A stretch of DNA of 22,915 nucleotides from a virus, in the IMG/VR virus record IMGVR_UViG_3300030098_005653, positions 1 through 22,915 of that record; one strand, 5' to 3'. Below the pieces are notes generated by a model. That model made no database searches, was not told the DNA's origin, and saw only the letters and a list, made by a program, of their open reading frames with translations. The position numbers and the translations under genes were made by a program. Positions 2,237 through 22,915 of this stretch are shown piece by piece. Positions within the stretch are counted from its first letter, which is position 1, and every line of letters begins with the position of its first letter.

Positions 2237-3613
2237 CTAATACGGTAAGTTTTCTTCTACTGTAATATCTTCAGCTTTCACTTGGGTTAGGTACTTATTT
2301 GTTGTGTCTATCTTTTCGTGACCCATGCGATTCTTAACGGTTGCTATATCTACATTATTTCTCAGCAGTTGTGTAGCATAGGTATGTCTATAGCTTGTGT
2401 AGGTGGGTAACTCACTAATGCTGTATATTGCTTTTTCATTTTGATTAAATTCTTTAATACTATCAGCAAATTGATTATTCGATATAACTACGTTTTTTGT
2501 ACCTACGCTCCGCTGATCTTTGTCCCATTTACTGCCTTGCCTCACATAACGTCCTGATGGAATAATATATTGACCTAACATTCCTAACTTATTTTGCCGT
2601 TTTCTTTCAGTTTCAATCATATTTTTTAACTCATCTTTAATACCAAGCGTTCGAAATTCGTGATCTTTTGGTGTATGTATTTCACCGTTAGCTGCACACG
2701 TTGATTCTTGCACATATAAAAATGATGCCTTGTTTTTATTTATTACTAATGCGTCCCATTCCAGCCATCGCATTTCATTGGTTCGCAACCCACAATACAA
2801 TCCAAAATAAATAGCGATCACTATACAGCCATGCATTGGATGTTTACGTCCACAGGGATCGGTATAGTAATCATATTTCGCGCTTAGAACTGCAATCGTT
2901 CGTTTGGCCTCATCTTCGGTTAAAACTCTACGTGGTTTTGTCGTTGTTTGTTTAATGGTTGGGCATCGATTTTTATTATATGGGGAACGGTCTATTAAAT
3001 TCAAATCTATACAGGCACTAAAAAAGTTTTTTAAAGCATAATTTTTTTTGTTTGTGGTGCTCGGTGAATGTTGATTCCGTTGCATATCCCACCATTCATA
3101 GTAATCGTCCTCAGACATAGATGCTGGATTAGGATGTTTTTTTCTTACATCCGATAAAACTCTTGTAAGCTCATTTTTTGTTTTTTGTAATGAATCAGGT
3201 TCTTTGCCCCAATCTTTTCTTGTTTTATTTTTTGCGTTTTCAAGGTATTTATCCACAATTAAATTCATATCAAGTTCCACAGCAGCAAAGGAGTTTGTTC
3301 TTTTTATGTGATCTCTGTAGCCAGGCCAAACCAATGCAGCATCCGCAGGACTAATTAAAGGTTTAGTTAGTCCAAACTCTCTATAGCCGTTTACCCATGT
3401 ATCTATTTCTTCCGATGTAGCAATGCCGCTTTTGGACGCTTGTTCAATTCGGTTTGCAGCAAATTGCAGAGCTTTCGTGATATCTGATTTACTTACTCTT
3501 TTGATACGTGGGGGTGGATCTTTTTTGAATCCAGAAATCCATATGTTATACTGTAAAACCCATCGTCCTTTTGGCTTTTCTTTTGTTGGTTTTTCAAATG
3601 TCAGGCTTGGCAT
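2237..3613 (-). CDS. int: Tyrosine recombinase (phage integrase)
   Basis: A 458-residue site-specific recombinase that would join attP to the host tRNA-Tyr attB. The catalytic domain occupies about residues 228-445: box I Arg277 in GLRTNE, Lys316 in TPKDHEFR, Arg409-His410 in SYRHTYATQLL, His432 in MGHEKIDT, and nucleophile Tyr441 in NKYLTQ. Residues 95-210 fit a core-binding SAM-like domain and the N-terminus may bind arm sites. The first His of the HxxR box is replaced by Thr406. The start is set by a GGAG ribosome site 8 bases before the ATG. It points away from attP, whose tRNA-derived core begins 235 bases upstream of its start codon. Confidence 0.93.
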   Translation of the reverse strand: MPSLTFEKPTKEKPKGRWVLQYNIWISGFKKDPPPRIKRVSKSDITKALQFAANRIEQASKSGIATSEEIDTWVNGYREFGLTKPLISPADAALVWPGYRDHIKRTNSFAAVELDMNLIVDKYLENAKNKTRKDWGKEPDSLQKTKNELTRVLSDVRKKHPNPASMSEDDYYEWWDMQRNQHSPSTTNKKNYALKNFFSACIDLNLIDRSPYNKNRCPTIKQTTTKPRRVLTEDEAKRTIAVLSAKYDYYTDPCGRKHPMHGCIVIAIYFGLYCGLRTNEMRWLEWDALVINKNKASFLYVQESTCAANGEIHTPKDHEFRTLGIKDELKNMIETERKRQNKLGMLGQYIIPSGRYVRQGSKWDKDQRSVGTKNVVISNNQFADSIKEFNQNEKAIYSISELPTYTSYRHTYATQLLRNNVDIATVKNRMGHEKIDTTNKYLTQVKAEDITVEENLPY

Positions 3614-5273: not shown

Positions 5274-6011
5274 CTACTCGTACCTCTCCCTATGAGTACG
5301 AGCCTTCAACATCGCACCGCGTATATTTTTGATTCCTCTTTGATATTCCTGGTTTACGGCTTGTCTACTTTTGCCCATCACGCGACCGATTTGCTCGAAC
5401 GTCCAACGACGATTTCCAATAAGACCTTTATTAAACTGGATGATACGTCTGTCGTTAGATTTTTTTACGTGATGTATATAAATTTCTTTTTCTTCATATT
5501 CCTCTGGTTGTGTACTTAAAACAGCCTTATCCAAACTCACCGGATGTTGTGCGGTGTGTTTTTGTGTCTTTGGCAATTCCTCATAGGCGACCTGCGCTGC
5601 ACGCATGTACGACATTCCACCAGCAACTAATTCATTCTCTCGTTTTTTACGTTTATTGTTTTTTGCGAGATCGTGATTCGTGGCTGTTCCACCTGGGGCA
5701 CACTCGACATAAGTATCGTGGATTCCGCGAATAATCCAGTGGCGCACGTACGCACCCACGGTGTATGGAGACGATAAATCAAACTTGTCTATCGATTCGG
5801 TTAGTCGCATTAAGGTATTCTGCAACGCATCATCGACATTTAATTTGTTATGCTGGTTTATAAACTGGACACACAAACGCACCATAGATCGCACCAGTTT
5901 GTCTCGCGCTTGGTAGTCCTGATTTTCCTGCCATAACCTTACACACTCTTTTTGTTCATCATGGGTTAATGGCGCGAGGGCCATATTATCCCACTGGTTT
6001 TGTCCGCTCAT
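5274..6011 (-). CDS. Sigma-70 family-like transcription factor
   Basis: A 245-residue protein. Residues 34-100 resemble sigma region 2: ARDKLVRSMVRLCVQF, then DDALQNTLMRLTESIDKFDLSS and YTVGAYVRHWIIRGIHD, which matches the YaxxxIRxAI part of regions 2.3-2.4. Residues 203-232 (WTFEQIGRVMGKSRQAVNQEYQRGIKNIR) are a typical region 4 helix-turn-helix for -35 recognition. The middle is a charged linker. It overlaps the helicase gene by 26 bases within the early operon. By analogy with phage sigma factors it would redirect host RNA polymerase, perhaps to the late promoter near 15.9 kb. A non-sigma HTH protein with sigma-like folds is the alternative. Confidence 0.75.
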   Translation of the reverse strand: MSGQNQWDNMALAPLTHDEQKECVRLWQENQDYQARDKLVRSMVRLCVQFINQHNKLNVDDALQNTLMRLTESIDKFDLSSPYTVGAYVRHWIIRGIHDTYVECAPGGTATNHDLAKNNKRKKRENELVAGGMSYMRAAQVAYEELPKTQKHTAQHPVSLDKAVLSTQPEEYEEKEIYIHHVKKSNDRRIIQFNKGLIGNRRWTFEQIGRVMGKSRQAVNQEYQRGIKNIRGAMLKARTHRERYE

Positions 6012-10130: not shown

Positions 10131-10154
10131 AAAAAACTCATATATGAGTTTTTT
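10131..10154. promoter_or_regulatory. Operator palindrome 1
   Basis: A perfect 24-bp inverted repeat with core ACTCATATATGAGT (10136-10149), flanked by a run of A on the left and T on the right. The identical core occurs at 10289-10302. It is probably bound by one of the two HTH regulators. The A/T flanks could also form a hairpin, but there is no loop, so a DNA-binding site is preferred. Confidence 0.7.
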
Positions 10155-10283: not shown

Positions 10284-10307
10284 AAAATACTCATATATGA
10301 GTATTTT
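10284..10307. promoter_or_regulatory. Operator palindrome 2
   Basis: A perfect 24-bp inverted repeat sharing the 14-base core of operator 1. Its centre (10295.5) lies 42.5 bases upstream of the first base of the -35 box at 10338. The same offset separates a related palindrome from the promoter at 11343. Confidence 0.7.
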
Positions 10308-10407: not shown

Positions 10408-10641
10408 ATGAAAGTCAGCTTACGTAAATACCGCGTGTTAGAAATCGCAGAGGCAAAAGGGTTTTCTTCACTGAAAGATTTGAGTGGAGAACTTGGATTA
10501 CACCCAACAGCACTCTCTCAATTAATGTCCAACAAAACCAATTTCACAAAAGAAACTTTGGAGAAGTTATTGACCGTTTTGGATTGCGAGTTGGGGGATA
10601 TCGTAGAGGCAGTCAAGGAAAAGGACTTGCCTAATTCGTAA
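10408..10641 (+). CDS. Small Cro/CI-type HTH regulator
   Basis: A 77-residue protein that is essentially one helix-turn-helix domain: YRVLEIAEAKGFSSLKDLSGELGLHPTALSQLMSNKTNFTKETLEKLLTVLDCELGDIVE. This is the short Cro/C1-type (HTH_26-like) form. ATG 10408 was chosen because GAGGTG lies just upstream; GTG 10402 is an alternative. It is a single-gene transcript: an intrinsic terminator follows 37 bases after the stop. It would bind the neighbouring palindromes and oppose or complement the leftward HTH protein. Which one is the lysogeny repressor cannot be told from sequence. Confidence 0.85.
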   Translation: MKVSLRKYRVLEIAEAKGFSSLKDLSGELGLHPTALSQLMSNKTNFTKETLEKLLTVLDCELGDIVEAVKEKDLPNS

Positions 10642-10677
10642 TTACTTTCTAAGTTACACCCAATCGCTAAAAGTAAT

Positions 10678-10715
10678 GCCTCTGTAGTCCTTCGGGATTG
10701 CAGGGGCTTTTTTTT
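10678..10715 (+). terminator. Rho-independent terminator after the small HTH gene
   Basis: GCCTCTG pairs with CAGGGGC, and an inner TCC/GGG pairing closes a TTC loop with small bulges. Eight T residues follow (10708-10715). It separates the regulator gene from the iteron array. Confidence 0.85.
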
Positions 10716-11450: not shown

Positions 11451-12641
11451 ATGATAGATCAAAAAAAGAATGTTGTGACTGCGTTTAATCAATGGAAATC
11501 AAGACCAGCTGAGGAACGCTTTCTTGATATAGATCAAATGCAGGCAGTAATGACGAAACGGCGCGAACGGTGCGAAGATGTAGGCCCGTACAGCGTGGCC
11601 GATATGACAGTCGAACCAGGACCCGAAAATAGTCTAGCCCTGGTTGATGGTGATAACGGGGGCGCACTCTTAAACAATTTTTCACTTAACCAGTTAGCTG
11701 CATCAGTAAAAGCTCCAGCTGGATACCTTAGAACGCTACCCAATCACTTAGCAGCCGAATGCTTAAACGAAGGGCTTCCCGAATTTGGCGAAACAGAACG
11801 CCATTTATTGTATGAGCATGGGGATCAAGTAGGCACCATTCGAGCGATAACCAGCCCCCAGTACTCCCGTTATTGGGATAATGAAGTAATAGCCGATTTA
11901 GCCAACAGCTTGCAAGCGGATGGCTGGAGGGTTCCACCCTGTAGACCGTTCCCTGGGTGCCCCGATAATATGACTTGGACAGCAACAGCAAACGACATAC
12001 TGCCTGGTGATTCCCAAAAACTAAGTATAAGAGAAGGTGATTTATGCGGGCCTGGTGGGCTGTACAGTTCGGACCGTGACAGCTTTGTTTTTATGGTGAA
12101 CCAAAACCGAACAATAGAAACCCCAAGCGGGCCAATGTTTAGGGCGTTAATCTGTAAGAATTCCGAAGTTGGCCAAGCTGCTTTTGGTATTAGCTGTTTT
12201 TTATATAGTGCTGTATGTGGAAATCATATTATGTGGGGCGCTGCTGAAGTTGCTGACGTAAAGATTAGGCATAGGGGCGAAGCTGATTTGGCTGCAATAC
12301 GTGCAAAGGCTGCAATGGCTGGAGCAGTAGCAGCAGCCGAAAACGCCAGCAGTTACGTTGAAGAGACTACAATATCACTAGCAGCTGAAACACTAACAGA
12401 CAGCAATGCAGTGCAGCAAGCTACTAAACTCCCAAAGGATACAATCTTAGCAGCTGAAACTTTGGCCAAGGAGTATCCACAGGACCACGGGGACCGATTA
12501 GGTACAACCTGGGCATGGGTGCAAGGTCTAACAAGGGCCAGCCAGCAACGTGGGTACACAGCGGACCGGGCCAGCATTGATGGAGCAGCAGCCAACTTGC
12601 TTAAACCTATAGCAAAGCAGGTGCACAGTGTTGCAGCATAG
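11451..12641 (+). CDS. DUF932 family phage/plasmid protein
   Basis: A 396-residue protein. Residues 70-290 match the DUF932 pattern by eye: LNQLAASVKAPAGYLRTLPNHLAAECLN, ITSPQYSRYWDNEVIADL, VFMVNQNRTIE and FRALICKNSEVGQAAFGISCFLYSAVCGNHIMWG. DUF932 proteins are common in phages and plasmids; their biochemical role is not established. The C-terminal part is alanine-rich and helical. The start has GAGGTG 7 bases upstream. It is the first gene of the rightward accessory operon ending at the terminator at 13281. Frequent CCAG words and heavy C/G runs set this block apart from the left arm. Confidence 0.85.
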   Translation: MIDQKKNVVTAFNQWKSRPAEERFLDIDQMQAVMTKRRERCEDVGPYSVADMTVEPGPENSLALVDGDNGGALLNNFSLNQLAASVKAPAGYLRTLPNHLAAECLNEGLPEFGETERHLLYEHGDQVGTIRAITSPQYSRYWDNEVIADLANSLQADGWRVPPCRPFPGCPDNMTWTATANDILPGDSQKLSIREGDLCGPGGLYSSDRDSFVFMVNQNRTIETPSGPMFRALICKNSEVGQAAFGISCFLYSAVCGNHIMWGAAEVADVKIRHRGEADLAAIRAKAAMAGAVAAAENASSYVEETTISLAAETLTDSNAVQQATKLPKDTILAAETLAKEYPQDHGDRLGTTWAWVQGLTRASQQRGYTADRASIDGAAANLLKPIAKQVHSVAA

Positions 12642-12825
12642 TAATCTAATCCAGCAAGCTGTGAGAGATAGCCAGGGCCGATTTACTGGCCAATATGAGA
12701 TAGTCGAAAAGAATACAAATAAAATCCCTGGGGCGTATGCTCCAGGGGTTAAGGGCTGGGCTTTTTTGGTCCCGTTTATTTTGGTAAATGTTTACGTAGT
12801 CCTAAATATCGGGGGCCAAATATGA
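12628..12825 (+). CDS. Small single-pass membrane protein
   Basis: A 65-residue protein with a polar N-terminal half and one hydrophobic helix (GWAFLVPFILVNVYVVLNIG). It starts at GTG 12628 (or TTG 12631) inside the end of the DUF932 gene. No strong ribosome site is visible, but its TGA overlaps the next ATG (ATGA), which supports a real coupled gene. The codons around 12726-12748 also encode a stable RNA hairpin (CCCTGGGG against CTCCAGGG). Function unknown. Confidence 0.5.
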   Translation: MLQHSNLIQQAVRDSQGRFTGQYEIVEKNTNKIPGAYAPGVKGWAFLVPFILVNVYVVLNIGGQI

Positions 12826-13040
12826 ACGCTAAAACCTTGAACGGATCGGTCCACCTGGTTAATACGTTTATAACGATTTTGAGCGAATGTGAACAGGTCA
12901 TACGATTTGCCGAAACCATCACACCCGATGAAAGCAATAAAAAATATTTTTCTGATTGTGCTGGCGAAGTTTCGACTGTAGTTACAAAGGCCCAGCATAT
13001 GACCGAAGAATTTAAACGCTTAGCTGAAAGGTGCGCTTAA
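12822..13040 (+). CDS. Small helical protein of unknown function
   Basis: A 72-residue protein, predicted mostly helical, with three Cys residues (ILSECEQVIRF, FSDCAGEV, ERCA) and no clear motif. The start overlaps the upstream stop by 4 bases, and the next gene starts directly after its stop (TAAATG). It belongs to the DUF932 transcript. Function not recognised. Confidence 0.55.
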   Translation: MNAKTLNGSVHLVNTFITILSECEQVIRFAETITPDESNKKYFSDCAGEVSTVVTKAQHMTEEFKRLAERCA

Positions 13041-13256
13041 ATGATATTCTACAGAGTTGAAACCTATTGCATAGGATTTGAACCTCAACCCATAGAAAAA
13101 GTAAATCTCAAAAATAAGCGCGATGTTTATTTAGAATTAAATGACGCTGCCTTTTTCGAATATTCTGAGGGTAATACATCAATAGAATATTTTACAACTA
13201 AAGCTAAGGCTGTAGAGCATCATAAATGGCTAAAGCAGCAAGCTAAAGAAGATTGA
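13041..13256 (+). CDS. Small protein of unknown function
   Basis: A 71-residue protein of mixed beta/alpha character (FYRVETYCIGFEPQPIEKVNLKNKRDVYLELNDAAFFEYSEGN), ending in a lysine-rich helix (KAKAVEHHKWLKQQAKED). It is the last gene before the intrinsic terminator at 13281, so it closes the DUF932 operon. No family recognised. Confidence 0.55.
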   Translation: MIFYRVETYCIGFEPQPIEKVNLKNKRDVYLELNDAAFFEYSEGNTSIEYFTTKAKAVEHHKWLKQQAKED

Positions 13257-13280
13257 AACCTTTAACCAAAAACGAAAACG

Positions 13281-13309
13281 GCCCCAGGGTAAAACCTGGG
13301 GCTTTTTTT
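13281..13309 (+). terminator. Rho-independent terminator of the DUF932 operon
   Basis: GCCCCAGG (13281-13288) and CCTGGGGC (13295-13302) form a perfect 8-bp stem around GTAAAA, followed by seven T residues. This is a textbook terminator. Confidence 0.93.
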
Positions 13310-13334
13310 GTGCCTAATTATGAGATAATAAGAC

Positions 13335-14054
13335 ATGACAATAAATAATTGTGCCAAAATTTGGCAAGATACGGAACGCAGCTTATATGCTGCTCTGTAT
13401 TGTATCAGCAGACCCAGCGCGAACGCTAAAACCGGGGATATGCTACAGCTTGCAATAATGCCCCTGGAACTAAGCCCCACACAAGCGCAGAAACAAAAGC
13501 AGCAGCATAATTGCGGAACGGGTGCAACAGCTTGCCCCATTAAATCAATGTGCTATGTCAATACGGTTAGCCTGGTCGATGTATGGAAAAAAACAGCAGG
13601 GGAACCCGTGCAGGAAATTCCCCAGCAAGTTAAGCCTTTACGGCTGGGGAGCTGGGGCGACCCCGGTTTATTGCCCCTTGAATTGCTGGAGCAGTTGACC
13701 AGCTCTAACCCGTACGGGCATACCGGATATACCCACCTTTGGCCCCATATTGATCCCAAATACAGCAAGTATCTAATGGCCAGCGTTGACCAGCCCACTG
13801 CACGGGCGCAAAGTCTCAGCATCGAACAACTAACCAGCAAGGCCCACCAGTTAGGGTATCGAACCTATAGAATAAAGTTACCAGGCCAGCAGCTTAACCA
13901 GGGGGAAATTGAATGTTTAGCCAGCAGCCAAAACAAGCAGTGCAGAGAGTGCAAGCAGTGCAACGGTACTAAGGGCAGGTTTACCCGATCTATTGCAATA
14001 GACGTACACGGAGCACCCAGCAAAATCGCAGCATTTAAAAAGCTGGCAGCCTAA
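13335..14054 (+). CDS. Cys-rich Gp88/DUF7227-like phage protein
   Basis: A 239-residue protein. Cysteines fall in two clusters: Cys60, Cys67 and Cys73 (NCGTGATACPIKSMCY) and Cys203, Cys206, Cys209 (QCRECKQCNG). Between them RLGSWGDP and HTGYTHLWPHID resemble the R-x-x-x-x-GD and YT-R/H-x-W motifs of phage Gp88-like proteins of unknown function. The layout suggests a bound metal or iron-sulfur cluster. It begins a new unit after the terminator. The 16-bp imperfect palindrome ATTATGAGATAATAAG lies just before its ATG and may contain the promoter -10 box. The family call is by pattern only. Confidence 0.6.
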   Translation: MTINNCAKIWQDTERSLYAALYCISRPSANAKTGDMLQLAIMPLELSPTQAQKQKQQHNCGTGATACPIKSMCYVNTVSLVDVWKKTAGEPVQEIPQQVKPLRLGSWGDPGLLPLELLEQLTSSNPYGHTGYTHLWPHIDPKYSKYLMASVDQPTARAQSLSIEQLTSKAHQLGYRTYRIKLPGQQLNQGEIECLASSQNKQCRECKQCNGTKGRFTRSIAIDVHGAPSKIAAFKKLAA

Positions 14055-14107
14055 TGGATATACTAGCCGTGGTGATACTCATAATAATTTTATACAAAAC
14101 CAAATAA
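14054..14107 (+). CDS. Possible 17-residue membrane micropeptide
   Basis: A short ORF (MDILAVVILIIILYKTK) whose ATG overlaps the stop of the Gp88-like gene (TAATG). It is almost entirely hydrophobic with a basic end, as in very small membrane peptides. The overlap favours translation by re-initiation, but an ORF this short can arise by chance. Confidence 0.3.
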   Translation: MDILAVVILIIILYKTK

Positions 14108-14116
14108 GGGGATAAG

Positions 14117-14434
14117 ATGAGAAAACAAAGAATTAAATATTACTACATAAGTAAAGCCGATTTTGACAACGGGGCCAAACAACGGCAGGAATGGTGCTCG
14201 TATAGTTGCGATTCGACATTAAAAAACGCCTATGAGCACGAAAGCTGCTACGGCAGAAAAGATATATCTGGCGAAATTTATTACTTTAAGACTAAATTAC
14301 GGACCGATATATACGACGTTTACCAGGCCACGGATACAAAGTTTAAACTGTTAGCCCGTAAAGTTACGCCCACTGTATACGACGATTTCGGGCTACCGAT
14401 GATTCGAACCCGTACGCAGTGGGATGCACTTTAA
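14117..14434 (+). CDS. Hypothetical protein, Tyr- and basic-rich
   Basis: A 105-residue protein starting MRKQRIKYYYISKADFDNG, with a GGGG-containing ribosome site 5-9 bases upstream. It has three central Cys residues (EWCSYSCDSTLKNAYEHESCYG) and several beta-prone stretches (IYYFKTKLRTDIYDVYQA, FKLLARKVTPTVYDDFG). It is in the transcript of the Gp88-like gene. No domain recognised. Confidence 0.55.
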   Translation: MRKQRIKYYYISKADFDNGAKQRQEWCSYSCDSTLKNAYEHESCYGRKDISGEIYYFKTKLRTDIYDVYQATDTKFKLLARKVTPTVYDDFGLPMIRTRTQWDAL

Positions 14435-14453
14435 AAACGAAAAAAGGGAAATA

Positions 14454-14795
14454 ATGAAAACAATAGAAGCTAAAAGCTTTGATACTCGTATAGATGTCGA
14501 TTTATTTAACTCTGGGCTGGATGCCCACCCTGAGCACGAAATACAACAACACTTAGACTTACAACTTAGTGTTGATTATGCCAATCACGGGGGCGTAGGC
14601 TGGCCCGTGCTCAAGGTGCATGATGTTGCTACGCTGGCTAACTTTCTACAAGCAGCGACTGACCTGGATAGCCCAGGGGATGCAGTTGGCCCCGATGGTG
14701 AATTACAAATAAGGGTATTTGGCAAAGATATACCCACATTAATAGACCTACTTCAATCGGCTTATATAGCGGATAAAACGCACGAAAGAAAATAA
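14454..14795 (+). CDS. Hypothetical protein, last gene of the accessory block
   Basis: A 113-residue acidic protein (MKTIEAKSFDTRIDVDLFNSG...). ATG 14454 was chosen because GGGAA lies just upstream; an ATG at 14424 would overlap the previous gene and lacks a good site. The sequence has the look of a small alpha/beta fold (HEIQQHLDLQLSVDYANHGG, LKVHDVATLANFLQAATDL, LQIRVFGKDIPTLIDLLQSA). A terminator follows after 24 bases. Function unknown. Confidence 0.6.
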   Translation: MKTIEAKSFDTRIDVDLFNSGLDAHPEHEIQQHLDLQLSVDYANHGGVGWPVLKVHDVATLANFLQAATDLDSPGDAVGPDGELQIRVFGKDIPTLIDLLQSAYIADKTHERK

Positions 14796-14819
14796 GCAAA
14801 AGAGTAAAGCAGCATACTG

Positions 14820-14851
14820 GCCCCCGGGTATTGTGTTACCTGGGGGCTTTT
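14820..14851 (+). terminator. Rho-independent terminator of the Gp88-like operon
   Basis: GCCCCCGGGTA (14820-14830) pairs with TACCTGGGGGC (one G-T wobble) around a short loop, followed by TTTT. It closes the transcript that begins near 13320. Confidence 0.85.
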
Positions 14852-14980
14852 GTGTGGCTGCTGCACTCGCGTTTTTTGCTGCAAATAGCACAAAAACGGA
14901 CCAGTTAAGCAAGGTGACAGCGTTTATTGACTTCGATGCTGGGGAATTGCAGGGGATAAATAATATAAGGGGGCCTAATT

Positions 14981-15136
14981 GATGGGGTAGGGGATAGGCC
15001 CAGGATATTGCCAGGGTATAACCAGGGGGGATAATATCGACCAGGGGAAAATATAAGGGGGTAGGTTGATAGGGTAGGGGGGTGCTTGCAGTGTTACAGT
15101 GTGGAAATAGGCAAGGGTATATCGATGGGGTAGGGG
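14981..15136 (+). repeat. G-rich direct repeats, three copies
   Basis: GATGGGGTAGGGG at 14981-14993, GATAGGGTAGGGG at 15068-15080 and GATGGGGTAGGGG at 15124-15136, all in one orientation, within a segment dense in other G runs. The reverse complement (CCCCTACCCCATC) is similar to the C-rich repeats at 11146-11288, so the two G/C-run segments face each other across the accessory block. Confidence 0.65.
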
Positions 15137-15171
15137 AGTAGATACCAGGGGGATACACTCGAATCTGTATA

Positions 15172-15183
15172 ATCAACTCAAAA
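15172..15183 (+). repeat. Solitary iteron half-unit
   Basis: ATCAACTCAAAA is an exact 12-base match to iteron units 4 and 5 at 10815 and 10849, in the same orientation but without the TTTGGAAT half. A 12-base match is unlikely by chance in a window of this size, so it may be a second binding site for the iteron-binding protein. Confidence 0.45.
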
Positions 15184-15224
15184 CGGATACTGGGGATTAG
15201 TGTGCGTTCATTATATGGGGAAAT

Positions 15225-15443
15225 ATGGGTATTTGTCTATATATTGGGGTATATGAACCCAAACAGCACTATATATGGTGTATAATACCCATAATAGGTA
15301 TTATCGATAGTATAAGATATATGCCCGGTCCCCTATTTATACACAAAAACAGGCAAAAAGAAGGTGAACCAACCAGAGGGGGCTATCGGTATAGGTATAG
15401 CTATAATATCCCGTATACATCTTCCCACTTTTCACTACATTGA
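15225..15443 (+). CDS. Doubtful ORF in G-rich/AT-rich region
   Basis: A 72-residue frame (MGICLYIGVYEPKQHYIWCIIPIIGIIDSIRY...) with GGGG 4 bases before the ATG. Its Tyr- and Ile-rich composition comes from TAT and ATA repeats in the DNA and the C-terminal half is low complexity. It could be a small membrane peptide but is more probably chance. Confidence 0.2.
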   Translation: MGICLYIGVYEPKQHYIWCIIPIIGIIDSIRYMPGPLFIHKNRQKEGEPTRGGYRYRYSYNIPYTSSHFSLH

Positions 15444-15449
15444 CCACAT

Positions 15450-15647
15450 ATGGCTAAGAGTATCTGTTTGGAGACTATAGAGGGGTATTTGAGGTATGTC
15501 CCTCGTTATGCGATTGTGGATATTGTTCCTCCGCGTACTCGTTGGGATGTACCTTCTCTGGTATTGGATACGGGTGAGGTGGTATTGTTGAGTGAGGAGA
15601 CTGTATTGGCTCCGGTGGTGGAGTTTGTGTTTTACGGGGGTAGGTGA
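15450..15647 (+). CDS. Small hypothetical protein
   Basis: A 65-residue frame (MAKSICLETIEGYLRYVPRYAIVDIVPPRTRW, then VPSLVLDTGEVVLLSEETVLAPVVEFVF). Its balanced composition and plausible beta-rich fold are more protein-like than the surrounding DNA, although no clear ribosome site is present. It is isolated between the G-rich region and the late control region. Function unknown. Confidence 0.4.
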   Translation: MAKSICLETIEGYLRYVPRYAIVDIVPPRTRWDVPSLVLDTGEVVLLSEETVLAPVVEFVFYGGR

Positions 15648-15745
15648 TCGAACGGGTGTAGGTTTTTATTTGTTGTTTTTCTCTGTAATATTTTGGGGTA
15701 ATATTATATCAGTATATATATACTATTATATATATAATATATATA

Positions 15746-15842
15746 TGTACATAAGGTACATGATATCATATGAGTCTTTATTTAAGATTAAAGTACTTGT
15801 ACTTAGTATCATATGAGTAAGTATATTTTATCTCATATGAGT
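15746..15842. promoter_or_regulatory. Palindrome cluster with three TCATATGAGT sites
   Basis: TCATATGAGT occurs at 15766, 15809 and 15833, all in one orientation; each contains the 8-bp palindrome TCATATGA. Further inverted repeats are AAGTAC-TT-GTACTT (15791-15804) and ATGTAC/GTACAT (15746-15762). The half-site CTCAT/ATGAG recalls the switch operators but without their 2-base centre. The last site is 37.5 bases upstream of the late -35 box, measured centre to first base. Confidence 0.55.
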
Positions 15843-15873
15843 ATATATATATTATTAACCATCTTTTTTCTGC

Positions 15874-15901
15874 TTTACAATCTTTTTTAACGGGTTATAG
15901 T
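15874..15901 (+). promoter_or_regulatory. Late promoter candidate
   Basis: TTTACA (15874-15879), 16-base spacer, TATAGT (15896-15901). Predicted start about 15907. It lies downstream of the palindrome cluster and upstream of a leader terminator and the whole late operon. Confidence 0.6.
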
Positions 15902-15906
15902 GTGAG

Positions 15907-16013
15907 CAGCATTTGTGCTCCTCTATTTTGTATGGGATTCTCACGATCCTCTATTCCTCCGATCACAATGCCCTCTTGCCCTTGATCGCTTAATCGCGGT
16001 CAGGGGTTTTTTT
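15907..16013 (+). ncRNA. Putative short leader RNA between late promoter and terminator
   Basis: A transcript of about 105 bases is predicted from the promoter at 15874-15901 to the terminator U-run at 16007-16013. A hairpin lies at its very start (GAGCA, loop, TGCTC at 15904-15920). No ORF with a ribosome site lies inside it. This mirrors the lambda pR' leader RNA and tR' arrangement, in which late transcription depends on antitermination. Existence of the RNA is inferred from promoter and terminator only. Confidence 0.5.
15979..16013 (+). terminator. Rho-independent terminator before the late operon
   Basis: CCCTTGATCGC (15979-15989) pairs with GCGGTCAGGGG (15996-16006) over 11 bp with three G-T pairs and a 6-base loop, followed by seven T residues. 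The first late gene starts only 5 bases after the T-run, so read-through or antitermination must control its expression. Confidence 0.88.
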
Positions 16014-16018
16014 ATGCC

Positions 16019-16417
16019 ATGAGTATACACCCAGACATTCCAAATTTTTCCTGGTCTGAACTGAAGCCCAGGCATTGCAGTGAAGAGGAACTGATAGCGC
16101 ATTGTTGTTTAAAGGTCAGCGATCGGTTCTGGCTGCACATGAAAAAGTTGCAGCAGTTACGGGACGATTGGGGAGGTCCGTTGCGGATTACCTCCACCTG
16201 GCGTGATGAGGCATACAATCGGAGTGTGGGAGGTGCGCCCAACTCGCAGCATTTAACCTGGGCTACGGATGTTGTTCCGAAAGATCCAACCCCTACGGAA
16301 GTGGAAGAGCTTTCTGTTTTGGCCGATCAGTTAGGGTTTAATGGGATTGGAATGTATCCACAGAAGGGATTTGTGCATTTGGATATGCGTGGCGAACAAG
16401 CGAGATGGCTGGTATGA
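16019..16417 (+). CDS. Peptidase M15-family endolysin
   Basis: A 132-residue protein. Zinc ligands are His78 and Asp84 (SQHLTWATDV) and His120 (VHLDMRG), with GGPLRITSTWRDEAYN before them. This is the M15A (D-Ala-D-Ala carboxypeptidase-like) layout at full usual length. The protein would cut peptidoglycan peptides at lysis. No signal peptide is visible, so it needs a holin or other release route. The only nearby purine-rich ribosome-site candidate (AGGGG) is inside the terminator stem and 12 bases from the ATG, hinting at structure-dependent translation. It heads the late operon and overlaps the small terminase gene. Confidence 0.85.
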   Translation: MSIHPDIPNFSWSELKPRHCSEEELIAHCCLKVSDRFWLHMKKLQQLRDDWGGPLRITSTWRDEAYNRSVGGAPNSQHLTWATDVVPKDPTPTEVEELSVLADQLGFNGIGMYPQKGFVHLDMRGEQARWLV

Positions 16418-16920
16418 AGCTGAATACGAATCACAAACAGGCGATTCAGTTGATGATCCTCGATCGATGGGTTCCCTCGAAAACCACGAACAATGTGGCT
16501 AACCATTTAGGCGTTGCACCTCAAACGGTAGCCCTTTGGCGTACGGACAAGGACTTTTGCGAGGAATTTAAGCGTCAGTTGGACATTTATCGCAAGAATT
16601 TTGACGATGTGCAGCTGGCAGACCGAAAAGAGCGCGTAAAAGAGCTGCAACGACTCTATGTGAAGATACCGGACAAGCGCATTGCTTTAAAAATTAAGGT
16701 TTTAGACACCATTGCCCGTGAAATGGGTGATGTGCAGACGCATGTGCACAAACATATGCTCGAACGGGCTGATAATCAGGATGGAGTAAATGCACCTCCG
16801 CAAGCCAATACCTATGAAGAGTGGGTAGAGCAGAATCGCCAGATGGAAGAGATGATGAAGCTGACCGAAGCCAAACCAGTGGAAGCTGAAGTGACTACGG
16901 AGGACGTTGTTGAAAACTGA
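16405..16920 (+). CDS. terS: Terminase small subunit
   Basis: A 171-residue protein. The N-terminal helix-turn-helix (KTTNNVANHLGVAPQTVALWRTDKDFCEEFKRQLD, about 25-60) fits DNA recognition by small terminases of the phBC6A51 type. Helical middle and acidic C-terminal regions follow, suited to ring formation and contact with the large subunit. It lies directly before the large terminase, overlapping it by 14 bases. The start may be ATG 16405 or ATG 16414, which overlaps the endolysin stop as ATGA. It would bind the packaging site on concatemeric phage DNA. Confidence 0.8.
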   Translation: MAGMKLNTNHKQAIQLMILDRWVPSKTTNNVANHLGVAPQTVALWRTDKDFCEEFKRQLDIYRKNFDDVQLADRKERVKELQRLYVKIPDKRIALKIKVLDTIAREMGDVQTHVHKHMLERADNQDGVNAPPQANTYEEWVEQNRQMEEMMKLTEAKPVEAEVTTEDVVEN

Positions 16921-18346
16921 ACTCCCTATAGCTGATCCAGACATTGCCTTTGAAACGGATAAGGCCGAATTGCCTAAACCGCAGCCTGGACCACAGGAAA
17001 AAGCGTTGCGTGCAACCTTTGTTAATGAAATGCTATGGGGTGGAGCGCGTGGAGGTGGGAAAAGTTTCTGGATACTGCTGGATTTTGCCCAGGGAGTCAA
17101 AGAGCATGGCAAGAACTGGCGTGGCATCATCTTTAGGCGCACCTATCCCGAACTGGACGAGATCTTAAACGAATCCAGGCGCATCTTTTACAAAGCCTTT
17201 CCCGGTTGTGAATACAAGGTGGGTCAACGTAAGTGGTTTTTCCCGAACGGGGCTGAACTGTCTTTGCGTCACCTGGAAAACGAAGCCTCCGCAGACAGTT
17301 ACCAGGGTCACCAGTATACCTGGATCGGATTTGACGAGATCCAGCAGTGGGAAAACCTAAACGCCTACCACAAACTGAAAGCGACCTTGCGATCCGGTGC
17401 TGCCGAAGTGCCGAACAAGCGTATTCGATGCACAGGCAACCCAGGTGGAGTAGGTCATCAGGAAATTAAAGCCTATTTCATCGATAATGCCCCCGAAGGT
17501 ACGGTGTATAAAGACCCTAAAGACAATTCCACGCGCATGTTTATCAAATCGCTGGTAACAGACAATAAGATCCTGTTAAAACGCGATCCCAACTACATTG
17601 ATCGACTTAAAGGCGTTGGAGACGACCTGCTGGTTAAGGCTTGGCTGGAAGGGGATTGGGATAGTTTTGTTGGGCAGTATTTTTCGCGCTGGAGAGAGGA
17701 CGAGATCGTAGTGCCCTCGTTTAAGATTCCTACACACTGGTCGTTATGGGCTGGATTGGATTACGGTGAATCCAGTTACACCGCTTTTGCCCTCTTCACG
17801 CAGGACCACGAAAAAAACATCTATCAGATCATGGAGTTTTACAAACGCGGAGCCACGGCATCGACCTACGCGCAGGAGATCAATCAGATGGTCGAAAGCT
17901 GTCCATTTACGGATGGTCGCAGACCTACCGCTATTTATGCTGACCCTTCCATGTTCACCAAAAGAAGATTAACCGAAGTCATACAAACCAGCCCTGCAGA
18001 TGTGTTTCAAGATCATCATCTCTACCTGCAGCGTGCCAACAACGACCGAGTTACCGGATGGCGCATTTTGAACGATGCGTTAGCCAATAAAAAGTTTTAT
18101 GTGTTCGATCAATGGAACGACAATACGTTGCGAACCCTTCCTGCCCTACCTCGCTGCAAACGCAACCCCGAAGATCTGGACACGCACGCAGAAGATCACT
18201 TAGCCGATATGATTCGCTATGCACTGATCCATCAGTATCGACCTGCCCGTTTGGTTGAGCCAGCTAACCGCGATCCGCAGCTGGGACAAAACGTGATCGA
18301 TTCGATCCTGGATAATCAAACCGCAGAATACGGGAGATACAGTTGA
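16907..18346 (+). CDS. terL: Terminase large subunit
   Basis: A 479-residue packaging motor. Walker A is GGARGGGKS (45-53), Walker B YTWIGFDE (137-144) and the coupling motif TGNPGG (176-181). The RNase H-like nuclease domain starts at WAGLDYGESS (Asp285), with Asp346 in IYADPSMF and a late acidic site in HAEDHLADMIRYAL. Length and motif order are normal. The start is TTG 16907 or the adjacent TTG 16910, with CGGAGG upstream and overlap with the small subunit gene. It drives DNA into the prohead through the portal encoded next. Confidence 0.95.
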   Translation: MLKTELPIADPDIAFETDKAELPKPQPGPQEKALRATFVNEMLWGGARGGGKSFWILLDFAQGVKEHGKNWRGIIFRRTYPELDEILNESRRIFYKAFPGCEYKVGQRKWFFPNGAELSLRHLENEASADSYQGHQYTWIGFDEIQQWENLNAYHKLKATLRSGAAEVPNKRIRCTGNPGGVGHQEIKAYFIDNAPEGTVYKDPKDNSTRMFIKSLVTDNKILLKRDPNYIDRLKGVGDDLLVKAWLEGDWDSFVGQYFSRWREDEIVVPSFKIPTHWSLWAGLDYGESSYTAFALFTQDHEKNIYQIMEFYKRGATASTYAQEINQMVESCPFTDGRRPTAIYADPSMFTKRRLTEVIQTSPADVFQDHHLYLQRANNDRVTGWRILNDALANKKFYVFDQWNDNTLRTLPALPRCKRNPEDLDTHAEDHLADMIRYALIHQYRPARLVEPANRDPQLGQNVIDSILDNQTAEYGRYS

Positions 18347-20421
18347 AACAGGAACAAATAAATTTCTGGCGCAAATCAATCGATAACGGCATCACCTACA
18401 TGCGTCCAAAGCACAAGCTCTGGCACAAACTGTTAGGGATGTATAAAAACGAGTTTGAAGTGGCTGGACTGGACAAAGATCAGGTTGTTCGCATCAGTCG
18501 TTTTTATCCGTTGACCAGACAGATCATATCGTCGATAGCGTTTAACTATCCAACCGTGTTTATGCGCGTAGATAACCCAAACCGCGAATTTCAAGCTCAG
18601 ATTTTAGAGCGCGTAGCGAATGCAGCCCTGGAAACGATGGGCGTAAAAGAAGAGATGCACCAGGCGATCTTTGATGCGCTCTACTGCTCGTTGGGTTGGC
18701 TGAAGTTCGATTACAATGCCCCTGGCGATGATCTCATGGCTCCGTATGTAGTGAACGACTCACTGCAGGACGACATGGTTGCGGTACGACGAGTTTCACC
18801 GTTTAACATCATGGTCGATCCGCTCTGTCCTCCGCATAAGCTCGGACACGCTCGGTACATCATCGAAAAGATGCTGGTCCCACTGGAATTTGTCCGTAAC
18901 GATGATCGGTTTGTCAATCGCAGACAGATCCAGGCCATTACCAACCGCGAAGATGAAACCGATTCGCTGTATGAAATGCAGGACACGAATTACACCGATA
19001 ACGACGAAGAGAATGCCACTACGCAAGCCAAAGAGCTGGGTGAGTTTGCATTACTCTATGAAATACATGACAGAGTGCATCGCAAGCGCATCGTTTTTGC
19101 CGATGGCGTAGAGCAGCCCATCGAAGATATTCCGCATCCGTTTTTAGAGCAGGAACCCGTGATGCAGCCCGATCCGTTTACGGGCGAGATGATGATGACC
19201 GGAGAGTTCGAACAAACGGGTTCGTATCTGGTGCAGGGAGGCTTTCCGTATCACGCACTGAAGTTCGACTTAAGCGAAGAGTCGTTATACGGGCTGCCGA
19301 TGATGTCGTATGTCGAAGATGAACAGAAAGCGATTGTTGAAAGTGTTTCTCGCAGGGTAGACCTGCTAAAGCGGTATCCGCGCCTCATTTTAGGGCAACG
19401 GTCCGAACGCGAAGAAAACGCAAACATTGGCGATCAGATTACTCGCGCACGCGATGGTTCGATCATCTGGTGTAACGATGTGAACAACGGCTTTAGGGAA
19501 ATGCAGATGGGAAGCCCTCCACCCGATCAGCTGGGCATCGAAGCAGACATGCGCCAGTATGAGGAACAGGTGTTGCAGGTTTCACAGATGGCGATGGGAG
19601 GTGGACCACGAAGAACGGCTACGGAAGCCTCGTTGATTGCCTCGTTTGGAACGCAGAACCGCGAATGGTTAAGTGCCGAAGTAGGTAAAGCCTACGAAGC
19701 GATTGTGGCGAACACGTTCCGCATCATGGCCGATCCGCGTTACACACCGGAGAACTTTATTATCAACGTGTCCGAAGGGGAAAACGATCCGGTATATCAG
19801 GCCGTAACCTCTGATCTGTTTAAGGTGCGTTTTAAGGTTGAAGTCGAAACGCAATCGATGCGTCCATTGTTCGAACAGCTTGAGCGCGAAGATACACTCG
19901 CCCTGGCTAACTATATGTTCCAGATGCCCGAAGTGGATCGCACCGAAGTCATCAAACTGGTTATGCGTGCCTTTAGAGTGCCTGACATGGATAAGTTCAT
20001 CAAGGGATCAGCGGATCAGGAAGCGGTGCGTGCAGCGCAACTGGAAAACCAGTTTTTTGCAGCGCGTCAACAAGACCCAGGTGTGTTACCCGAACAGGAT
20101 CACCAGGTGCATTTACAAACACATCAACAGGCACAACAAGATCCTGCGGTCACGCAATATCTACAACAGGCGATGCAGGTCAATCCACAGGCCATACAAA
20201 TTTTTCAGCAGCTTATGCAGCGACACATACAACAGCATCAGCAGTATCTGCAGGGTGAAGCACAAGGTCGCGCACCTCAACCACAGGAATCGGAAAAAAC
20301 TATTCCCAGCGTACGGGATGCCAGTAACGTACAGGCACAAGCCCAAAACATACAAAGTGTAGTGCGTTCCAATGCCCAGCGCGTGGGTCAAGCAGCCAAC
20401 ATTAATACGGAGCAGAACTAA
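18343..20421 (+). CDS. Portal protein
   Basis: A 692-residue protein following the large terminase, with a TTG start overlapping the terminase stop by 4 bases and GGGAG 6 bases upstream. The N-terminal and central regions (KYPRLILGQRSEREENANIGDQ, GGPRRTATEASLIASFGTQNREWLS) fit the portal core. The last 120 residues are very Gln-rich and helical (QQAQQDPAVTQYLQQAMQVNPQ), as in the barrel or internal tail of long portals. It forms the dodecameric DNA entry ring at the capsid vertex. The identity is based on position, size and pattern. Confidence 0.87.
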   Translation: MKQEQINFWRKSIDNGITYMRPKHKLWHKLLGMYKNEFEVAGLDKDQVVRISRFYPLTRQIISSIAFNYPTVFMRVDNPNREFQAQILERVANAALETMGVKEEMHQAIFDALYCSLGWLKFDYNAPGDDLMAPYVVNDSLQDDMVAVRRVSPFNIMVDPLCPPHKLGHARYIIEKMLVPLEFVRNDDRFVNRRQIQAITNREDETDSLYEMQDTNYTDNDEENATTQAKELGEFALLYEIHDRVHRKRIVFADGVEQPIEDIPHPFLEQEPVMQPDPFTGEMMMTGEFEQTGSYLVQGGFPYHALKFDLSEESLYGLPMMSYVEDEQKAIVESVSRRVDLLKRYPRLILGQRSEREENANIGDQITRARDGSIIWCNDVNNGFREMQMGSPPPDQLGIEADMRQYEEQVLQVSQMAMGGGPRRTATEASLIASFGTQNREWLSAEVGKAYEAIVANTFRIMADPRYTPENFIINVSEGENDPVYQAVTSDLFKVRFKVEVETQSMRPLFEQLEREDTLALANYMFQMPEVDRTEVIKLVMRAFRVPDMDKFIKGSADQEAVRAAQLENQFFAARQQDPGVLPEQDHQVHLQTHQQAQQDPAVTQYLQQAMQVNPQAIQIFQQLMQRHIQQHQQYLQGEAQGRAPQPQESEKTIPSVRDASNVQAQAQNIQSVVRSNAQRVGQAANINTEQN

Positions 20422-20600
20422 TGCCTAAAGTGGGAAATAAAGAATTTGGATACGACAAGAAGGGGATGGCTCAAGCTAAAGCAGCCTCTCGCAGATCAGG
20501 TAAGCCCGTAAAGATGGGCAAGCAGACAAGCTATACCTACGGCAACGCAGGACAGATGGGTAAGACCGCAGGTATTCAAGGACAGACACATAAGTGTTAG
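20421..20600 (+). CDS. Small basic protein of the head operon
   Basis: A 59-residue basic protein (MPKVGNKEFGYDKKGMAQAKAASRRSGKPVKMG...). Its ATG overlaps the portal stop (TAATG). Short Lys/Gly-rich proteins with an MPKV-G-x-K-E-F-x-Y start occur between portal and scaffold genes in related phages. It may be a minor virion or DNA-associated protein. No domain is assigned. Confidence 0.7.
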   Translation: MPKVGNKEFGYDKKGMAQAKAASRRSGKPVKMGKQTSYTYGNAGQMGKTAGIQGQTHKC

Positions 20601-20608
20601 GAATGTAA

Positions 20609-20971
20609 ATGCCGATATACGATTGGTTTTGTAAAAAGTGCGAACGGGAGGAGAAGGACGTGTTTTATCAAACGTCCAAGCTCCCAAAAACCCGTGCGTG
20701 CAAATGTGGTGGAAGAATGGCGCAGGACTTTTCACAAAAGGGTCGCAACCAGATACACCACGACCACTCCAGTTTATACGGCAAATGGGAACCAGCAGTA
20801 GGTGAATACATTTACAACTATTCCCATAAACAACAGATAATGAAAAAATACAATATTACCGAAGCAAACGACCCTGTTAAAGGATCACGCGAGTTTCGTA
20901 TAGACCCCCCAAAAAAGACTCCCAATGTACAAAGCGATTGGGCTGATGAGCCCAGTAACGCGCAACAGTGA
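20609..20971 (+). CDS. FmdB-like zinc ribbon protein
   Basis: A 120-residue protein. MPIYDWFCKKCEREEKDVFYQ begins with a CxxC knuckle and continues to ACKCGGRM, giving two Cys pairs typical of FmdB-type zinc ribbons. The rest (HHDHSSLYGKWEPAVGEYIYNYS) is polar. AGGAA lies 6 bases before the ATG. It sits between head genes and might help regulate or assemble head proteins; its function in phages is not established. Confidence 0.75.
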   Translation: MPIYDWFCKKCEREEKDVFYQTSKLPKTRACKCGGRMAQDFSQKGRNQIHHDHSSLYGKWEPAVGEYIYNYSHKQQIMKKYNITEANDPVKGSREFRIDPPKKTPNVQSDWADEPSNAQQ

Positions 20972-20983
20972 GAGGTAAGTAAA

Positions 20984-21865
20984 ATGTCAGAAGTAGTAGC
21001 CGAACAAGCCGAAACCGTAGCCCAGGATTCGACCCCTGCAGCTGCCCCTGTAGATGAGCCACTTTCTCTTGGAAGCGACTTAGCGCAGGATACCAGCAGC
21101 AGTGCTCAGAATACCAGCTCGGACAATTCAGATTCGTTCGATGCAAGCAGTATAACTAATTGGGCTACGCAGGATAAGTCTGCAGTACCCGAACAGTATC
21201 ACAGCGTCATTGATGCAGCGAAAAATCAGCAAGCAGATTACACGCGCAAGACGCAGGATCTGGCCGATCAGCGTAGGCAGTTTGAAGCGCAGATGACACA
21301 ACAGCAGCAGATGGTTAATAATCTGCAGCAACAGGTCAACCAGAACCAGCAGCAGAACAATCAACAGCAGAACGATCCTTATGCGGATCTTCGTCAACGT
21401 CTTGGACCCGATGAAGGAGCTGCCATTGATGTAGTGAGGCAGATCTTTAAAACGGAGTCGCAAGGCATTGAAGATCGATTGGCAAAACTGGATCAGCTGG
21501 AACAGGGATATACCAATCTTGTCAACCAGCAGAACCAGGGAAGGATCAAAGAAGCTGCAGATCAGTTGGCGCAAGCGCGTGAAAAATATGGAGATCGATT
21601 GGATGCACATGCGTCCGGTATTAAGGGATTGATTAACGCAGTGAATCCTGACACAAATCAAAACTATTCGATTACCGAAGCGTTTGAATTGTTGTCCGGT
21701 GAAAAAGCGAATCAGGCTGCTGCATTACGTCAAGCCGATTCCGATACCCGTAATAACTCCAAGCGTGCTGCCAGTAGCGGATCAAGTGTTGTTGTGAGCG
21801 GTGAAGGTGCAGCCATATCGGATGCAGAACTTATTGCGGAAGCACGCAACCTCGGTTTTGAATAA
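20984..21865 (+). CDS. Scaffold (capsid assembly) protein
   Basis: A 293-residue acidic protein directly before the major capsid gene. The N-terminal 60 residues are Ala/Ser/Asp-rich and probably disordered. Residues 85-135 form a long Gln-rich coiled coil (RRQFEAQMTQQQQMVNNLQQQ), followed by helical segments and a Ser-rich C-terminus ending in ISDAELIAEARNLGFE. This is the usual composition of internal scaffolds that guide prohead assembly and are removed later. GAGGT precedes its ATG by 7 bases. Confidence 0.8.
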   Translation: MSEVVAEQAETVAQDSTPAAAPVDEPLSLGSDLAQDTSSSAQNTSSDNSDSFDASSITNWATQDKSAVPEQYHSVIDAAKNQQADYTRKTQDLADQRRQFEAQMTQQQQMVNNLQQQVNQNQQQNNQQQNDPYADLRQRLGPDEGAAIDVVRQIFKTESQGIEDRLAKLDQLEQGYTNLVNQQNQGRIKEAADQLAQAREKYGDRLDAHASGIKGLINAVNPDTNQNYSITEAFELLSGEKANQAAALRQADSDTRNNSKRAASSGSSVVVSGEGAAISDAELIAEARNLGFE

Positions 21866-21882
21866 CAATGGAGAAATAAACA

Positions 21883-22899
21883 GTGCCAGCTATTACAACA
21901 AGTGAGCAATACGATGCATTATGGTCCTTAACAGCTCGCGCAAAAAAGAAACGTCTGACAGACAATATTTCAGACAGTTACCCCACTATTGCAGCGTTTA
22001 GAAAAGCAGGAATTTTAGAGACTTATAACGGTGGGAAGCAGATTCAAGAAGATTTGATGTATGAACTCGCGGATTCGGAATGGTTTGATGGCTACGATCA
22101 GTTGTCAAGCAATTCAATGGATGGAATCACATCTTGCTTTGAGTACTTCCGGTACAATGCAACGCCTATTGTCATATCAATGACAGAGGAAATGGAAAAC
22201 CGTTCATCGGACAAAGCGGTTAAATTGTTGACCGCAAAAACCGAACAGGCGATGACCGGATCGATGTCCACCATTAACGCTGCATTGCTCAGTGCTCAAT
22301 CGGGTAAAAGCATTGTTGGGTTGCAGGACATCTGTTCCGAAACAGCAGGTGGAACAGTACACTCAGTAAACAGTGCTACCAATACCTGGTGGGACAACAA
22401 GCGCGTTGATTACGATAGTAGTGCAGGTGCTAATGATTTTAATGCCAAGACAGGTGATATCTATTATGGCGTTAGGGCTATGCGCGATCTTTGGAACAAA
22501 GTGAGTGAAAGTAATGACACACCAAATTTATTGGTGACCAATTTTTCAGTGTATGGGGACTATCAGTCTATATTCGAAGGAACGGGTTATTATCGCTTTT
22601 CCTCCACCACTAATCAGGCGTTAGGTGACAGTGAAAACAACGCCACATTCCGTGGTGCTGAAATGATTGTTGACCGCGATTCACCGGGTACTGTAGATAA
22701 TCACAACCTCTACATGCTGCAGACTAAATACCTCAAGTTGAAGATGCAGGAAGGTTTGAACTTTGCTAAGACTCCGTTCAAAGAACCTGTAAGTCAACAA
22801 GCTAAAATTTCATATGTAATCACTTCTCTTCAACTAATGACCAACAACAGGCGTAGGCAGGGTGTACTCTACAACATCGAAACATCATCAACCATTTAA
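21883..22899 (+). CDS. Major capsid protein
   Basis: A 338-residue protein with GTG start and GGAG 9 bases upstream. Residues 20-110 (KKKRLTDNISDSYPTIAAFRKAGILETYNGGKQIQEDLMYE, then FDGYDQLSSNSMDGITSCFEYFRYNATPIVIS) and TWWDNKRVDYDSS with a later LLVTNFSVYGDYQSIF closely follow a widespread phage major capsid family thought to have the HK97 fold. Its place after the scaffold gene fits. It would be the most abundant structural protein. The window ends 16 bases after its stop. Confidence 0.9.
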   Translation: MPAITTSEQYDALWSLTARAKKKRLTDNISDSYPTIAAFRKAGILETYNGGKQIQEDLMYELADSEWFDGYDQLSSNSMDGITSCFEYFRYNATPIVISMTEEMENRSSDKAVKLLTAKTEQAMTGSMSTINAALLSAQSGKSIVGLQDICSETAGGTVHSVNSATNTWWDNKRVDYDSSAGANDFNAKTGDIYYGVRAMRDLWNKVSESNDTPNLLVTNFSVYGDYQSIFEGTGYYRFSSTTNQALGDSENNATFRGAEMIVDRDSPGTVDNHNLYMLQTKYLKLKMQEGLNFAKTPFKEPVSQQAKISYVITSLQLMTNNRRRQGVLYNIETSSTI

Positions 22900-22915
22900 T
22901 TAACCTGGGGGGCAA

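Follow-up and report, generated by a model that had tools for sequence, protein, structure and literature searches.

How does a phage express its late genes when a strong intrinsic terminator stands directly in front of the first of them? The question is raised by a viral record of 37,416 bp (G000), the first 22,915 bases of which form the stretch analyzed here (the window). Judged from its gene content, the phage appears to be temperate. HTH proteins, one repressor-like and one cro-like, are encoded in the window (Pfam), a leftward operon holds an Erf/Rad52-like protein and a sigma-70-family factor, and a 458-aa ORF at 2237–3613 was taken, by eye, for a putative integrase. No portal relative was confirmed in the species-genome collection, in which the nearest terminase, from a Magnetococcales MAG, is 49% identical over only part of the length. 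The rightward late genes open with an M15 endolysin at ATG 16019, and the features at and upstream of this start are the following:

15874–15901, plus strand: predicted late promoter, with -35 box TTTACA at 15874–15879, a 16-nt spacer and -10 box TATAGT at 15896–15901; hexamers identical in the relatives L003, L004 and L013
15908–15920, plus strand: conserved initial transcribed block AGCATTTGTGCTC (+1 to +13), 13/13 identical in L003 and L004 and 12/13 in L013
15908–16013, plus strand: predicted leader RNA of about 106 nt, with +1 at A15908, the seventh base after the -10 box and the onset of conservation with L013
15909–15971, plus strand: likely closing helix, 15909–15917 with 15964–15971, around an inner hairpin at 15930–15954, from folds of four leaders (moderate support)
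15978–16013, plus strand: intrinsic terminator t4, a 12-pair stem at 15978–16007 with a T run to 16013; 36/36 identical in L003 and 34/36 in L004 and L013
16019–16417, plus strand: M15 peptidase (endolysin), the first late gene (Pfam PF08291, 1.4e-17; phrog_894, 8.2e-23)

A sigma-70-like promoter had been proposed for this locus, and TTTACA-16-TATAGT, matching the consensus at 10 of 12 positions, is indeed present at 15874–15901, where the proposal put it. The score alone is not above chance, with 19 promoter-like sites found in 12000–22915 against 17.8 (sd 3.9) expected. The late promoter is convincing because both hexamers are kept in L013 (6/6 each), with the intervening spacer at chance (4/16); positions -6 to -1 share no base (0/6). 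Conservation between the window and L013 starts exactly at A15908, the +1 expected from the -10 box, and amounts to 12/13 from +1 to +13, 4/13 from +14 to +26, and 34/36 in the terminator. Because this conservation begins at +1, it points both to A15908 as the start site and to a role for the transcribed sequence. The leader has four carriers, namely the window, L003, L004 and L013, three of them close relatives; L003, L004 and L013 were obtained by protein and pattern scans of IMG/VR. Comparison with G009 for L013 yielded no convincing homologue of the right-arm genes of the window from 12641 to the late promoter, yet the leader is common to both. In L003 (6210–7061) and L013 (4657–5508), M15 and the terminase small subunit have a 283-aa ORF between them, absent from the window, that by eye is a PAPS-reductase-like candidate.

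The DNA just upstream of the late promoter (15700–15860) is very AT-rich, with palindromes and GTAC motifs, and recurs in relatives. Three direct repeats of CATATGAGT lie there, at 15767–15775, 15810–15818 and 15834–15842 (0.14 expected), and resemble half-sites of two 24-bp palindromes (core CTCATATATGAG) located between repressor and cro at 10131–10154 and 10284–10307. A repressor-like protein might possibly control the late promoter directly through these repeats, of which, by eye, L013 has no copy.

The strong terminator of the original prediction is borne out: t4 ends five bases (16014–16018) before the ATG at 16019, combines a hairpin of about -20 kcal/mol with T7, and belongs to a set of six strong terminators on the plus strand of the record. 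Terminator-like sites in 12000–22915 are in excess (22 found against 11.2, sd 3.7, expected). Late expression would need read-through of t4, because there is no room for a promoter between the terminator and the gene. The RNA predicted to span 15908–16013 (106 nt) agrees with the earlier estimate of about 105 bases. No convincing second copy of the leader was found elsewhere in the record, and an Rfam search of the leader gave no match at the gathering score; a weak NsiR1 match over the terminator (E 1.3) was taken as chance. Ahead of M15, the window, L004 and L013 offer a single Shine-Dalgarno-like stretch, AGGGG, which lies in the 3' arm of the terminator, so that the endolysin may be poorly translated even from read-through RNA. 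The anti-Shine-Dalgarno-like sequence CCTCC (15956–15960 in the window) is found in the late leaders of the window, L003, L004 and L013; by eye, L024 and L067, whose leaders are unrelated, have it too, and it is absent from the leaders of L005, L006/L009, L021 and L107.

The start-proximal hairpin that had been read into this leader, GAGCA/TGCTC (15904–15920), exists as DNA, and we reject it as an RNA element. Four of its five 5'-arm bases lie upstream of A15908 and would therefore be untranscribed, the pairing is broken in L013, which has CGTTA/TACTC at the same place, and the leader folds otherwise. We folded the four leaders from six starts each, and all six window starts (15905–15910) gave a long-range helix in place of the 5' hairpin. 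In all four records, the 5' end of the leader (AGCAUUUG) can pair with the segment just before the terminator, the helix strands being GCAUUUG/CAAAUGC in L003 and L004 and UAGCAUUUG/CAAGUGCUG in L013, where the first U of UAGCAUUUG immediately precedes +1. Interiors were shuffled leader by leader; the duplex energy of the real sequence was attained in 2.3% (window), 25.7% (L003), 1.8% (L004) and 2.0% (L013) of shuffles, and its helix length in 70.7%, 30.8%, 5.1% and 3.5%, respectively. The MAFFT alignment puts the 3' helix strand of L013 elsewhere, so no pair counts were made on it. The folds, moderate as their support is, make the closing helix likely, not proven.

Recurrence was assessed by looking for a strong terminator, defined identically throughout, at most 320 nt upstream of M15, in 13 near records (terminase at least 71% identical) and 25 wider records (terminase 56–63% identical; only those with a detected M15 and at least 320 nt of sequence before it were counted). 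A terminator was found in 10 of the 13 near records (0.86 expected) and in 4 of the 25 wider ones (0.76 expected), counts that are not independent, the records being kin. By this definition, none was found in the near records L008, L022 and L038 or in 21 of the 25 wider records. The late operon may begin with other genes in these cases, such that absence is not decisive; the terminator-less records do count against a universal gate. A promoter with at least 9 of 12 consensus matches lies upstream of the terminator in 8 of the 14 positive records, and none at 9/12 was found in the other 6. Among those eight, L102, L107 and L108 have an unrelated TTGACA-17-TATGTT with the terminator stem 25–27 nt after the -10 box, a layout that is another instance of the promoter-then-terminator plan. 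In other lineages the hairpins of the leader have unrelated sequences but are just as strong.

The late terminator is not solitary. The right arm is punctuated by four strong plus-strand terminators, t4 and three early ones:

10676–10715, plus strand: terminator t1, just after the cro-like gene (which ends at 10641); same place in L026
13280–13310, plus strand: terminator t2, just upstream of the phrog_2554 gene (13335); same place in 6/6 records examined
14819–14851, plus strand: terminator t3, from terminator scans

A terminator follows cro in 2 of 5 records. The phrog_2554 gene is preceded by a strong terminator at a distance of 22–33 nt in all six records, with differing stem sequences, and seems to be a second gene reached only via read-through. 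A further terminator is located at 23841 of the record, after capsid-region genes; the minus strand of the window has no terminator at a cut of -12 kcal/mol. Some 600 bp upstream of the late genes, at 15361–15425, lies a strongly conserved, apparently non-coding element (GAAGGTGAACCWACC ... GGTATCG..ATWATATC), present in 13/13 near records even where neighbouring genes are only about 50% identical. A scan with its own pattern yielded two extra copies, and RNAalifold detected no covarying pairs in 15 rows; an origin, a cos/pac site or a regulatory site are guesses as to its nature.

If t4 has to be passed, a factor might be expected. The absence of a Q-type gene, as originally noted, holds at the sensitivity of the Pfam and PHROG searches made. 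The Q families PF03589 and PF06530 had no match in G000 or G009, although a diverged Q could be missed; PF06323 had none in either, but its control matched nowhere either. The highest phrog_79 score was 13.6 bits, on the HTH of the sigma factor only. No antiterminator emerged when early or regulatory ORFs were scanned, 18 of them against PHROGs and 17 against Pfam, along with two or three late genes. The scanned set excluded the ORF at 15225 and the genes for DnaB, resolvase, SSB and the putative integrase, and PHROGs alone were used for the 396-aa protein encoded at 11451, a DUF932-like candidate. Two other candidates were set aside: the 65-aa protein at 15450–15647, just before the late promoter, is disfavoured as an antiterminator, having no G009 homologue despite the common leader, and boxA/nut was rejected, with the best score in the window leader, 7/11, falling inside a terminator arm and 9/11 reached in L013 only.

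In the early region, the window and G009 have in common the cro-like gene, the genes for the 396-aa protein and the repressor (27%), and the left operon, to which the sigma factor belongs. A specific trans-acting factor, if any, should be among the genes that the window shares with L013, that is, the cro-like gene, the gene for the 396-aa protein or the left operon with its sigma factor, the candidate late regulator:

5274–6011, minus strand: sigma-70-family factor, regions 2 and 4 (Pfam, profile search; common to G009)

By its sequence, this protein is a sigma-70 relative. Region 2 scores above the Pfam cut-off (6.3e-07) and region 4 below it (1.2e-04), a profile search matched a SigA chain (2e-16), and the structure model is weak (mean pLDDT 62), with Foldseek matches that are sigma factors. 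Its counterparts are 55% identical in G009 and 35% in L045.

The obvious comparison is with the lambdoid PR'-tR' arrangement and its antiterminator Q, as in phages lambda, 21 and 82. The locus studied here appears to have the same order of elements, with a promoter, a short leader, an intrinsic terminator and the late operon behind it. It differs in that no Q-type protein was found among the searches made. Q is described as depending on a site to bind between the -35 and -10 boxes and on a pause sequence resembling a -10 box (PMC6606751). Here, the spacer, where a Q site would lie, is not conserved (4/16 against L013, a test blind to a Q site that co-evolved with its protein), and none of the -10-like pause candidates is positionally constant across the four leaders: TATTTT/TATCCT occurs at +17 in the window, L003 and L004, and L013 has only the weaker TACTCT at +9 and CATTGT at +25. 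The PalpB-tB region of Pseudomonas aeruginosa likewise places a promoter and then an intrinsic terminator before lysis genes, and is opened by the processive antiterminator AlpA, which is described as binding between -10 and -35, after which polymerase passes the terminator (PMC9371919); no conserved site lies between these boxes in our case. StxS, described as a small RNA that Stx phages produce from the PR'–tR' interval (PMC7873438, PMC12197685), resembles the leader as a short terminated transcript of a late promoter, here predicted from sequence, whereas the leader is without an established mRNA target. HK022 put RNA, described as two stem-loops downstream of early promoters (PMC9378689), offers a structure near the 5' end of a phage transcript with no protein factor recognised, as here. 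Its two stem-loops, about 70 nt near the 5' end, act on distant terminators without a phage protein, unlike the leader, a single long-range domain right before one late-operon terminator, plus that terminator. The put-like fold once suggested for the 5' hairpin is thus unsupported.

With somewhat better than even confidence, we favour a gate of the lambda PR'-tR' kind, in which a sigma-70-type promoter is followed by a terminator before the late genes and antitermination is needed. Sequence elements, their conservation and their recurrence are what we observe; promoter activity, default termination and regulated read-through are what we infer from them. Late-operon transcription would initiate at A15908 and by default terminate near 16013, giving the RNA of about 106 nt, and late in infection some factor or RNA state would allow read-through of t4. 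The antitermination would most likely be exerted by a phage factor at the promoter or leader, as by lambda Q at PR'-tR'. Of the original prediction, the short-RNA-by-default logic stands, supported by position, conservation and recurrence; its 5' hairpin and put-like fold do not. The gate is most likely a working analogue of PR'-tR', and we do not claim membership in the Q class. Counting against it is the terminator at 23841, of the same kind, after capsid-region genes where simple attenuation would suffice. Such attenuation could hold for t4 as well: as a plain attenuator or insulator, t4 would stop most promoter-born and upstream transcripts, and a fixed fraction of read-through would set the late level with no antiterminator. 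We regard this as fairly unlikely. It fits the strong terminators placed directly before right-arm genes, with a late-region example at 23841, and the failure of the searches made to recognise an antiterminator, but with a terminator as strong as t4 (about -20 kcal/mol, T7) a constant leak would leave the most abundant phage proteins undersupplied, and the conserved +1 to +13 block would be left with no role.

That block weighs differently if the terminated RNA is itself the product, a stable small RNA of about 106 nt with a regulatory function and a paired 5' end, made in the lysogen like StxS. Conservation of +1 to +13, closing helix and terminator around a variable interior suits this reading, as does the StxS precedent as described (PMC7873438); the lack of an Rfam match at the gathering score speaks against it. 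So does its best predicted target, the repressor start, with 22 nearly contiguous pairs in the window phage: 31 of 200 shuffled leaders did equally well, the best such window comes 43rd among 9,344 in the genome in a ranking that includes the antisense of the leader itself, and L013 shows nothing, so that antisense action on the repressor mRNA was rejected. We give the small-RNA reading, compatible with the gate, little credence. Equally improbable in our view is a late switch in which the factor encoded at 5274–6011 recognises the late promoter and t4 merely insulates against early read-through. A sigma-70-family protein is encoded, also in G009 (55% identical) and L045 (35%), but the hexamers are ordinary sigma-70-like ones, and whichever polymerase starts there still meets t4. 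Least probable is a put-like cis-acting RNA, in which the nascent leader itself would render polymerase resistant to the adjacent t4: the transcribed part is conserved and the spacer is not, and no Q protein was found in the searches made, but the fold is unlike the two put stem-loops, and an always-active cis element beside a terminator would make no switch. There is also a slim chance of a Q-free opening of the gate, with the conserved first 13 nt and the closing helix forming a nascent-RNA element that would make polymerase ignore the terminator, together with the phage sigma factor, with another shared protein or alone, in an RNA-centred late switch particular to a set of uncultured temperate phages.

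The logic of the favoured gate is ordinary, known from phage lambda. If the gate operates as proposed, the late-switch logic of lambda would have been kept or reinvented in uncultured phages without a recognised Q or a conserved Q site, so that a search of the few shared genes should turn up a new antiterminator or an RNA mechanism. Expression of a right arm interrupted by four strong terminators would be explained as well.
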